Shown here: positions 4,973-26,636 of the stretch, one piece after another
Position numbering within the stretch: position 1 is the stretch's first letter
Layout: the number at the start of each line of letters is the position of its first letter
Source of the DNA: Minisyncoccota bacterium
GTDB taxonomy: Bacteria; Patescibacteriota; Minisyncoccia; Phycocordibacterales; Phycocordibacteraceae
Direction: 5' to 3'
DNA length: 41,045 nucleotides
NCBI GenBank assembly: GCA_022842585.1
Contig: JALHPI010000005.1
Location: 1-41,045, forward strand
Translations under genes and position numbers: made by a program
The notes under the pieces: generated by a model
Database searches by the model: none
What the model was told of the DNA's origin: nothing
Seen by the model: the letters and a program-made list of their open reading frames with translations, nothing else

Positions 4973-5043
4973 CGCGGGGTAGAGGAGAGGTACCTCGGGA
5001 GGCTCATAACCTCCAGACGCCGGTTCGATTCCGGCCCCCGCAA
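4973..5043 (+). tRNA. tRNA-fMet (CAT), initiator
   Basis: Cloverleaf with C1xA72 mismatch, A11:U24, anticodon loop CTCATAA, T-loop TTCGATT. Confidence 0.9.
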
Positions 5044-5054
5044 CACGAAAGACA

Positions 5055-5082
5055 GAAAGCCGCCGTAGGGCGGTTTTCTGCT
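5055..5082 (+). terminator. Rho-independent terminator after tRNA-fMet
   Basis: CCGCC-gtag-GGCGG followed by TTTTCT. Confidence 0.6.
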
Positions 5083-5244
5083 TGCGTGTTGACGGGGGAG
5101 AGAAGCGCGGGACGCTTCTCGTCCGGAATCGAAAGCCGGAAGCGCGACGGCGCTGAGGCGGGGTCGCGGAATTTTCCAGCAGGAAAATATCCGTGACCGA
5201 TGCGTGCCTGATTCTTATTCAGGACACTTCCGGCCCCCGCAACA
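5083..5244 (+). repeat. tRNA-tail-flanked structured element, fMet copy
   Basis: Inverted tRNA tail CGTGTTG-A-CGGGGG/CCGGAATCGAA (5085-5133, interrupted by a hairpin), core AGCCGGAAGCGCGACGGCGCTGAGGCGGGGTCG...CGTGACCG, direct tail TTCCGGCCCCCGCAACA 5228-5244 (same as 5029-5045). Confidence 0.75.
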
Positions 5245-5249
5245 TGAAA

Positions 5250-5281
5250 TAAGAAAACCGCCTGAAGGCGGTTTTCTTATA
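5250..5281 (+). terminator. second terminator after the fMet element
   Basis: AAGAAAACCGCC-tgaa-GGCGGTTTTCTT; resembles the terminator at 5055-5082. Confidence 0.65.
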
Positions 5282-5329
5282 TACGTACCTTAGTTTTAAG
5301 AGACATAAAGAAAGCAGTGCTACCATCAG

Positions 5330-5967: not shown

Positions 5968-6693
5968 TTACGCCGGGTCCCAAATGCGCCGATGACTCGT
6001 GATTTCGCGGATGGAGCGATTGCGGTGGATGAGCTCGTCGTTGCGGACTGATTCGAAGAATTCATATTCGTTTTTAACGTTGCGACCGTAGAAGTCGAGG
6101 AAATCGGAGACGAGCGGCTTTTGCTTGAGTGTGTCACCCTCTTGCTTCAAGAATTCGTTGTACTGCTGGTACGCGTGTGACTCGAAGAGATAGTTCAGTT
6201 CAAGGGCCGCCTTGTGCGAGACCATGTAGATAAGGTAAATGACCCAGAAGTAGAAGAAAGAAAAAAGAATCGGGATAAGCGTGTGGCGGAAGAATGCGTC
6301 CTTATGCATCTTCTGTACGATGTTGGAAATGACGACGACGTGCATCGTTTCGTTATCTTGTGCGAAGCGACCGAACGCCGCCATCTTGCAGAGCCGTATG
6401 GCATGCCGTTCGTTTCCGTAAAAGGCGGTGAGCATCGTATAGGCGGCCGACTCCCACGACTGGTAGGGGATGCGAGCGATGACTTCGACCGCTTTGAATT
6501 TCAGATAGGAGGGTTTCTTTCCGTAAAAGGTGTTTCCGGCAGTTACAAGAAGCCATCCGAGGATGGTTGGAACAAGGCCCGTTTTATACCCGTTCAACGG
6601 TGCGGCATATTGGGTGCGCAGTTCATCGTTATTGAGCTCGCGCACGAGCTTTTCATGGGCGACATAATCGTCGTTCATCTTAAAGAGTTCCAT
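5968..6693 (-). CDS. alternative oxidase-like diiron membrane protein (AOX/PTOX family)
   Basis: Four ligand motifs in order: WES, NETMH (ExxH), LFESHAYQQYNEFL, RNDELIHR (ExxH); paired hydrophobic helices. Confidence 0.75.
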   Translation of the reverse strand: MELFKMNDDYVAHEKLVRELNNDELRTQYAAPLNGYKTGLVPTILGWLLVTAGNTFYGKKPSYLKFKAVEVIARIPYQSWESAAYTMLTAFYGNERHAIRLCKMAAFGRFAQDNETMHVVVISNIVQKMHKDAFFRHTLIPILFSFFYFWVIYLIYMVSHKAALELNYLFESHAYQQYNEFLKQEGDTLKQKPLVSDFLDFYGRNVKNEYEFFESVRNDELIHRNRSIREITSHRRIWDPA

Positions 6694-7465: not shown

Positions 7466-7611
7466 TGTGCTGGTGGAAGGCCTGTTCACGCATAAATCCT
7501 TGCTAGGATTTTGCGCGAACCCGCCTCGCGCCGTCGCGCTCCGGCCTGCAAGTCCTTCACAGCATGCGCCCCACGCATGCCTCACCAGACTCAAAACGCT
7601 ACGCTTATTTG
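7466..7611 (-). repeat. tRNA-tail-flanked structured element, CAU-tRNA copy (minus strand)
   Basis: Direct tail TGTGCTGGTGGAAGG at 7466-7480 and 7610-7624; inverted tail TGCAAGTCCTTC 7547-7558 and CACCAG 7583-7588 separated by a GCATGC hairpin; minus-strand core GGCCGGAGCGCGACGGCGCGAGGCGGGTTCG...CGTGAACAGG. Confidence 0.75.
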
Positions 7612-7685
7612 TGCTGGTGGAAGGACTTGCACCTTCGACCTTGGGTTTATGAGTCCCATGCTCTAACTACCTGAGCTACACCAGC
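7612..7685 (-). tRNA. tRNA with CAT anticodon (elongator Met, or Ile2 if lysidinylated), unusual elbow
   Basis: GCTGGTG/CACCAGC acceptor, D-arm GCTC-AGGTAGTTA-GAGC, anticodon loop CTCATAA, T-arm GAAGG-TGCAAGT-CCTTC, discriminator A. Confidence 0.8.
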
Positions 7686-15955: not shown

Positions 15956-16113
15956 GCCGATGGTCGGGATTGGGGGAAGGGGGAGGAGATGCATGCGAGA
16001 ACACGCAGCATGCATGGAGTTTCCCCGTGGAGGAAAGCAGTGAGTCATCGAGCGCTGAAAACCGAGAGGTTTTCAGGGAGGAGTCCGCGACGACAATCTC
16101 GCACCATCGGCTC
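15956..16113 (+). repeat. tRNA-tail-flanked structured element, Thr(GGT) copy (divergent core)
   Basis: Inverted tail GCCGATGGTCGGGATTG 15956-15972 (reverse complement of 15898-15914); direct tail ACCATCGGCTC 16103-16113; internal hairpins ATGCATGC...GCATGCAT and CTGAAAACC-gaga-GGTTTTCAG. Confidence 0.65.
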
Positions 16114-25011: not shown

Positions 25012-26064
25012 TTAGATTTTTATTATTTCTTCCCATGAGCGGCCGGCAACGCCGAAGTGTCCGTATGCGGCCGTTGGGCGGAAGATAGGATTCCGGAGTC
25101 CGAGACGCTCGATGATGGCTTGCGGGCGGAAGTCGAAATTCTTATTCACGATCTCAGAGAGGTTCTTTCCAGTGTCGTCATAGGCTTCCACCATCACCGG
25201 TTCTACGCGGCCGATAGCGTAGGCGACTGATACAAGCGCCTTCTTAGCATAACCGTTTGCAACCAAGTTCTTTGCAACGAAGCGGCACATGTAGGCCGCA
25301 GAGCGGTCTACTTTCGTAGAGTCCTTGCCGGAGAATGCGCCTCCGCCGTGAGGCATGAGGCCGCCGTAGGTGTCCACCATGATTTTGCGTCCGGTGAGCC
25401 CTGCGTCTGCCTCAAATCCGCCCTGCACGAAGCGTCCCGTAGGATTCACGAGGATTTCAATACCGGAGATATCACCAAGGACTGCAGGGAAGAGGTGTTC
25501 GGTGAGGTCGGCGCGTATCTGCTCGAGCTCCGCTTCTTCTGCGTGCTGGGTCGAGGTGAGTGCGGTAATGACCTTTCCGTCTTTAAGCGTGACCTGTGTC
25601 TTGCCATCAGGACGCAGATAGGGAAGGGTGCCGCTTGTGCGGAGGTTTTCAAGCTTGCGAGCGAGCGCATGGGCGAGTACCACGCCTTTTGGAAGCATCT
25701 CTTCCGTTTCATCAGTTGCGTAGCCGTACATGATGCCTTGGTCGCCTGCGCCCCCTGTGTCTACCCCCATCGCGATGTCGCCTGACTGGGTCACAACGCG
25801 CGCGAGGATATCCAAGGGCTCGGTGTATCCGATGTCTTCATACACGCGTCGCGCGACGGCCGCGTAGTCTACGTTCGCGTTTGTCGTGACTTCGCCGCCA
25901 ATCATAAGTGTGCCGTGGCTTCCGAAGGTTTCTACCGCGACGCGGGACTTCGGGTCCTGCGCGAGACAAGCATCAAGTATCGCATCCGACATTTGGTCAC
26001 ACACCTTGTCGGGGTGTCCGTTCGTGACTGATTCAGTCGTGTAGGTAGTAAGCAAGTGGAACAT
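25012..26064 (-). CDS. metK: S-adenosylmethionine synthetase
   Basis: TTESVTNGHPDKVCDQMSDAILDA, GAGDQGIMYGYATDET, GGGAFSGKDSTKVDRSAAY. Confidence 0.97.
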   Translation of the reverse strand: MFHLLTTYTTESVTNGHPDKVCDQMSDAILDACLAQDPKSRVAVETFGSHGTLMIGGEVTTNANVDYAAVARRVYEDIGYTEPLDILARVVTQSGDIAMGVDTGGAGDQGIMYGYATDETEEMLPKGVVLAHALARKLENLRTSGTLPYLRPDGKTQVTLKDGKVITALTSTQHAEEAELEQIRADLTEHLFPAVLGDISGIEILVNPTGRFVQGGFEADAGLTGRKIMVDTYGGLMPHGGGAFSGKDSTKVDRSAAYMCRFVAKNLVANGYAKKALVSVAYAIGRVEPVMVEAYDDTGKNLSEIVNKNFDFRPQAIIERLGLRNPIFRPTAAYGHFGVAGRSWEEIIKI

Positions 26065-26127: not shown

Positions 26128-26138
26128 TGGAATATAGG

Positions 26139-26216
26139 CCCCCGAAGGGCTGGAGGGAGCACCGTTGCCTTTTCGGGCTGGTTGCTAGCAGTTCGTCGAG
26201 CCAGTGCTCTCCCTGC
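26139..26216 (-). promoter_or_regulatory. SAM-I/SAM-IV superfamily riboswitch-like leader of metK
   Basis: Minus strand GGGAGAGCACTGGCTCGACGAACTGCTAGCAACC...GGCAACGGTGCTCCCTCC resembles the S-box core CUGGCCC-gaUGAA-CC-GGCAACC ... GGUGCU--UCC; P1 AGGGAgAGCAC/GTGCTCCCT. Confidence 0.7.
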
Positions 26217-26316
26217 TTCTGTATATCTATTCAGTTGTACGGGGAGTATAGCACGCGTTGAAATAGAAGGGTCAATGCGGTATTGTCAGGACTATCGCGA
26301 CGTAGAGTCGCATCTT

Positions 26317-26427: not shown

Positions 26428-26567
26428 CTGCTGCCAGACTAGGATTCGAAAGCCGGAAGCGTCCTTCCGGGGGAAGGATAGCTGAGGCGGGGTCGAGAGT
26501 GCGAGCTGGATTGCGACAGCAGGAAGCAATCCAGCCGCAACTCGTGACCGAACCAGTCTGGCAGCAG
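26428..26567 (+). repeat. tRNA-tail-flanked structured element, Gln copy
   Basis: 26428-26450 is an exact 23-nt reverse complement of tRNA tail 26368-26390; core AGCCGGAAGC...GCTGAGGCGGGGTCG...CGTGACCG; direct tail CCAGTCTGGCAGCAG 26553-26567. Confidence 0.8.
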
Positions 26568-26591
26568 TGGGCAGAAACCGACAAGAGGTCA

Positions 26592-26636
26592 GGACTCTGA
26601 ATCCGTTTATCTAGGTTCGAATCCTAGTCTGGCAGC
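26592..26636 (+). pseudogene. truncated tRNA-Gln 3' half (45 bp)
   Basis: Identical to 26344-26388 of tRNA-Gln; upstream sequence cannot form the acceptor 5' strand. Confidence 0.85.

Follow-up and report, generated by a model that had tools for sequence, protein, structure and literature searches.

In this study, we found that many tRNA genes of Patescibacteria are directly followed by folded sequences of about 70-170 bases, apparently a family of tiny mobile elements that has so far escaped description and that enters tRNA genes without disrupting them. These sequences have a conserved and covarying core, favour tRNA genes and their strand, are framed by copies that match the tail of their own tRNA, occur with target duplications, nest in one another and are patchily distributed. 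We consider it rather probable that they are structured mobile elements of one non-autonomous family, whose insertions fall mainly at the T-loop or the 3' end of a tRNA gene and keep the tRNA intact. The window (the whole stretch of 41,045 nt presented here) is contig 5 of a 657-kb Kaiserbacteria-like genome, G000, in 35 contigs, all of which were analysed. The same core is also present in named relatives, including Candidatus Kaiserbacteria. The tRNA-fMet locus of the window is organized as follows:

4973-5044, plus strand: tRNA-fMet, the target gene (ARAGORN and Rfam RF00005)
5050-5082, plus strand: first terminator, whose hairpin runs on into the tail/inverted-tail palindrome (sequence, inverted repeats)
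5085-5098, plus strand: inverted copy of the tRNA tail, acceptor part and trailer (X'a), CGTGTTG-a-CGGGGG (sequence)
5100-5120, plus strand: side hairpin P1b, interrupting the inverted copy at the acceptor/T-stem boundary (fold and position analysis)
5123-5133, plus strand: inverted copy, T-stem and T-loop part (X'b), CCGGAATCGAA (sequence)
5131-5200, plus strand: conserved core (98 bits with covariance model R1; covariation across 78 distinct homologues), comprising P2 at 5135-5159 (GCC/GGC, internal loop GGA/GA), a GG linker, and P3 at 5162-5198 with an invariant G.U and a bulged A, followed by GA
5201-5227, plus strand: optional 3' hairpin module P4 (TGCGTGCCTGATTCTTATTCAGGACAC)
5228-5244, plus strand: direct copy of the tRNA tail (displaced tail), 17 nt identical
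5249-5280, plus strand: second terminator (perfect inverted repeat)

The order of tRNA, terminator, inverted tail, core, direct tail with 17 identical nucleotides and second terminator is seen in the sequence, as a preliminary description of this locus had claimed; the side hairpin at 5100-5120, which splits the inverted copy, had gone unmentioned there. The tail of tRNA-fMet, TTCCGGCCCCCGCAACA, recurs exactly over the 17 nt of 5228-5244, and this match is part of a 48-nt repeat of 73% identity that spans both terminators. The fold of the full element, 5083-5250, has an energy of -90.7 kcal/mol (z = -7.25). Its P4 module is shared by the fMet, Arg-GCG, Arg-CCG and Ser-GCT copies and has relatives at Glu-TTC and Gly-CCC. 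Further elements and a partial tRNA copy lie elsewhere in the window:

7466-7588, minus strand: element behind the second CAU tRNA (7611-7685, minus strand), with X' at 7588-7582 and 7558-7547, hairpin at 7581-7562, core at 7549-7482 and direct tail to 7466
15956-16113, plus strand: element behind tRNA-Thr(GGT), with the same layout and a different core; X' at 15956-15972 (17 nt), direct tail at 16103-16113
26428-26568, plus strand: element behind tRNA-Gln(CTG), with X' at 26428-26450 (23 nt exact), core at 26448-26551 and direct tail at 26554-26568
26592-26636, plus strand: further partial copy of tRNA-Gln, 45 nt identical to tRNA positions 28-72

The recurrence of the core at the CAU tRNA and at tRNA-Gln was confirmed by R1 matches. 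The three loci named at first are real, and the tRNA-Thr(GGT) element and the partial copy at 26592-26636 had been missed. Two other features of the window, both on the minus strand, are a protein matching the alternative oxidase family (5968-6693; PF01786, E 9e-7), unexpected in a reduced genome, and an ordinary SAM riboswitch (26129-26229) upstream of the S-adenosylmethionine synthetase gene (25012-26064, minus strand).

In the whole 657-kb genome, 11 of the 35 tRNA genes have both an inverted copy (at least 8 nt) and a direct copy (at least 10 nt) of their own tail within 356 nt downstream. The same criterion found no case upstream, a mean of 0.01 (maximum 1) in dinucleotide shuffles and a mean of 0.47 (maximum 3) with the tails of other tRNAs. 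These tail copies lie about 70-320 bp from the tRNA. The reported core is present at seven loci (fMet, second CAU, Gln-CTG, Arg-GCG, Arg-CCG, Val-TAC and Ile-TAT), and the remaining frames hold a second core at Glu-TTC and Gly-CCC, a third at Thr-GGT and a core-less form at Ser-GCT. Every close match to the core motif that has the stems is located behind a tRNA and in the same sense; a few weak R1 matches (E about 1e-5 to 4e-4) occur elsewhere in G000. We also observed partial direct tRNA copies, with neither inverted copy nor core, behind Ile-GAT, Asn-GTT and Gln-TTG and at 26592-26636 of the window, the latter coming after an element. These are possibly remnants of older insertions.

Searches in other genomes were conducted with R1, a covariance model of the core; one of its six seed sequences is a hand-shortened Ile-TAT copy, which served only for searching. 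We detected matches in 76 of 99 relatives. Within the order, 184 of 247 genomes and 119 of 151 genera have them; across the phylum, with other classes included, 32 of 287 genomes do. Homologues in related genomes, which the preliminary description had proposed to look for, are indeed frequent downstream of tRNA genes. Of 191 non-redundant copies, 112 follow a tRNA or tmRNA on the same strand, at a median distance of 62 nt and with 39 types represented, and 28 precede one on the same strand, several of these inside a partial tRNA copy. Only 2 are on the opposite strand, and 49, many from copy-rich genomes, have no tRNA within 260 nt. Thus, 140 of the 142 copies near a tRNA or tmRNA are on its strand. 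Insertions at tmRNA genes were found at two loci (L125 and L190).

The presence of the element at a given locus is patchy. Among the same-genus genomes viewed at the fMet locus, only G000 has the reported core; near relatives mostly lack it there, and in some of them the same frame is occupied by other cores. A further core type (motif GGTGTACTGAxxCTGTAAGxxTCGA) lies in the same tail-copy frame at L251, L253, L269 and L274 and in modules of L307 and L324, and is also seen inserted into the 3' arm of type-A copies. In addition, tRNA-fMet itself is split in the anticodon-loop region by about 215-270 bp, probably an intron, in several relatives (G002, G004, G005, G013, G015, G016, G019, G023, G030, G034, G037, G039 and G078).

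The core is a conserved structure. In 78 distinct homologues, 97.5% of the cells of the core pairing are paired, compared with 79.4% in shuffles, and 18 of the 23 pairs have changed on both sides, which bears out the expectation of covariation. Doubly changed cells number 277, compared with 65 after shuffling, in an alignment that was built by the model itself and is biased towards the structure; such a bias is unlikely to be the full explanation because the effect is so large. Moreover, sliding the pairing partners abolishes the covariation signal. In 76 of the 78 homologues, P3 has a G.U at its fifth pair. Outside this invariant wobble, mismatches are G.T in 47 cases and A.C in 11, and the folding strand is therefore the one read with the tRNA. 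This bias fits either an RNA or a top-strand single-stranded DNA.

Several lines of evidence show that the element is mobile. In one genome (G084), six copies of one unit share about 92 nt with unrelated flanks, and at least three of them are nested in the P3 stem of other copies. Exact direct repeats around the core, made of tRNA tail and downstream DNA, reach at least 16 nt in 46 of 106 copies, at least 20 nt in 26 and at least 30 nt in 6. The longest across a single element is 49 bp (L198); a 64-bp repeat at L184 is a tandem duplication of tail and element in a tRNA array. At the fMet locus of another genome (L239 of G070), an element with a type-C core (GTGGAGGAAGGCAG), which resembles the Thr-GGT copy of the window, lies between two exact direct copies of a 67-bp sequence, terminator included. 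Insertions are also found outside tRNA genes, in a 5S rRNA (L118) and at the end of a protein gene (L115 and L201), which by its last residues we take to resemble rplK. Altogether, mobility is shown by the nesting, by the unrelated flanks of the 92-nt unit, by the patchy presence and by target duplications of 20-67 bp. The preliminary description had argued that the copies are not a simple transposed unit; this holds for the outer stem and is incorrect for the inner unit, which transposes. One of the two options offered there, a mobile hairpin that captures the tRNA tail, is the better supported, given the 92-nt unit, the nesting, the target duplication and the insertions in 5S rRNA and at protein-gene ends. 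As a separate observation, four copies in G074 (L142, L144, L151 and L158) lie beside or inside another palindromic repeat family (GTCATCC..GCGAATGCGAGG), and in three near-identical longer units of the same genome (L145-L147; more than 200 bp), perhaps part of a larger repeat, the element has a diverged P3.

The arms indicate where the element inserts. Direct tail copies match their own tRNA better than other tRNAs (12.6 vs 5.3), as do inverted copies (9.3 vs 4.9). Of the right junctions of 106 copies, 55 fall in the T-loop, at 56^57, and 9 at the 3' end; an extra module sits inside the arm in 11 copies, and the other 31, about a third, are of no clear class, which weighs against the reading favoured here. 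The terminator hairpin runs without a break into the tail/inverted-tail palindrome in several copies, forming a single stem, which suits a fold-back. Under the reading that we favour, the moving unit would be about 70-100 nt long and would usually consist of a short 5' hairpin (P1b) and the two-stem core, P2 with its GGA/GA internal loop and P3 with its invariant G.U. It would insert in the transcriptional sense of its target, mainly a tRNA gene, where the T-loop (about C56^R57) would be the commonest site and the position immediately ahead of the discriminator (72^73) a rarer one. Insertion would duplicate the 3' end of the tRNA, from T-loop to tail and often with the terminator, so that the insert would be flanked by an intact tRNA and by a displaced tail. 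Recognition in trans of the folded strand, either RNA or top-strand single-stranded DNA, may drive this step. The inverted copy would be made from the target at insertion, as a putative fold-back, and would pair with the tail copies; such copying of the 3' end would generate the order tail-terminator-inverted tail-core-tail. A single fold-back copy accounts for the order of the element and does not predict a side hairpin at one tRNA-defined place; nor does it explain the insertions in partial tRNA copies, found among the 28 upstream cases. A bolder version, which we regard as possible and somewhat improbable, is a selfish replicon, made of either RNA or single-stranded DNA, which would be transcribed together with the tRNA, wear its acceptor/T-arm helix as a tag for processing and targeting and re-insert at T-loops through structure-guided machinery unlike that of known transposons, with several unrelated cores using one frame.

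Where a side hairpin splits the inverted copy, it does so at the boundary of acceptor and T-stem in 13 of 18 cases (binomial p 6e-6), a placement that resembles a helix with tRNA topology, as if the hairpin took the place of the D and anticodon arms. Such a placement would be expected if readthrough of the tRNA terminator produced a functional small RNA, with the core as its active part and with the helix of X' and tail imitating the acceptor-T arm for trimming by RNase P and RNase Z. The layout of tRNA, terminator, element and terminator, the strand bias, the covariation and the invariant G.U agree with such an RNA, and E. coli offers a precedent, since the small RNAs RrA, RrB and RrF lie between dual rRNA terminators and are made by readthrough (PMC8144298). 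However, within the T-stem part X' has changed by itself at 63 positions and together with the other arm at only 3; the outer stem therefore does not look maintained. Part of the right arm is lost in many copies, the helix is impossible for copies located in 5S rRNA, at protein-gene ends or nested in each other, and the element is absent at most tRNA loci of near relatives. Thus, the second option of the preliminary description, an RNA mimicking the 3' end of a tRNA, agrees with the side hairpin and with the strand and G.U biases, but not with an outer stem almost devoid of compensatory change, and we regard a functional small RNA as unlikely.

The preferred reading, a non-autonomous mobile element, calls for a mobiliser, and the failure to find a mobilising gene counts against it. 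Reverse transcriptase was rejected, as its genes are absent from G000 and their occurrence across genomes bears no relation to copy number. Tyrosine integrases are near-universal, usually as one Xer-like gene per genome (one in G000), and are thus uninformative. Y1 transposase genes occur in 122 of the 184 genomes with the element and in 23 of the 63 without it (Fisher p 5e-5, odds ratio 3.4), and this association, with the top-strand hairpins and nested insertions, speaks for a REP/REPIN-like palindromic DNA moved as a single-stranded hairpin by a Y1 (RAYT) transposase. However, G000 has no Y1 gene despite its many copies, about one third of element-bearing genomes also lack one, and no model match was found around 12 Y1 loci. 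The correlation may only mirror genomes rich in mobile elements, and long target duplications are not expected of Y1 insertion. Y1 was therefore rejected as the mobiliser, and this explanation appears distinctly improbable. Cargo-less footprints of ordinary tyrosine-integrase islands are very improbable: a regenerated tRNA, a displaced tail and insertion at the T-loop or 3' end are the island signature (PMC4383910, PMC1762012), but these inserts measure only about 150-200 bp and have an inverted tail copy, their covarying core is common to tRNAs of all kinds, and G000 has no larger island with distant copies of the same tails.

The family adds an abundant, so far unannotated component to some of the smallest bacterial genomes and shows a route for harmless insertion beside essential tRNA genes. 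It also raises the question of what is moved, a structured RNA or a hairpin of single-stranded DNA, and of which host enzyme moves it. In practical terms, the tail copies may affect tRNA annotation and 3'-end calls in Patescibacteria.

In agreement with the preliminary description, which knew of no named family with this layout, the element has no Rfam match. Rfam 15 returned only tRNA, rRNA and one SAM riboswitch for the window and 19 related loci, so that group I and group II introns and riboswitches were discarded as its identity, and a permissive scan of 5040-5290 gave nothing near a threshold. Viral, phage and plasmid sequences gave no convincing match, and we found no description of such an element in the literature. 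The palindromic elements of Rickettsia and Wolbachia are likewise small palindromic inserts in genes and RNA genes; they insert mainly in frame in protein genes and are not known to have a tail-copy frame. The distal repeats of E. coli tyrT, or rtT RNA (Rfam RF00391), a single locus of tandem repeats, also place repeat units behind a tRNA gene, each with a copy of its 3' end. Unlike rtT, the element is spread over many loci, and to our knowledge rtT has no inverted arm or covarying core. RrA, RrB and RrF share with the element an RNA-like structured sequence between two terminators behind a stable-RNA gene; in contrast to it, they have another sequence, no reported copies of the upstream gene's tail and no described mobility (PMC8144298). 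The closeness to REP, BIME and REPIN sequences with their RAYTs lies in being small, gene-free, hairpin-forming, non-autonomous intergenic repeats, whereas the element is tied to tRNA genes and their strand, is framed by copies of the target tail, shows strong pair covariation across the phylum and occurs in G000 without a RAYT. With tRNA and tmRNA islands of the Islander type, moved by tyrosine integrases, it shares insertion at the T-loop or 3' end, an intact tRNA and a displaced tail, but it has neither integrase nor cargo, measures about 0.2 kb, bears an inverted tail copy and uses one core for all tRNA types. Altogether, the element is partly like tRNA-integrating islands and partly like REP-type hairpins, and by the defining tests of each it belongs to neither.
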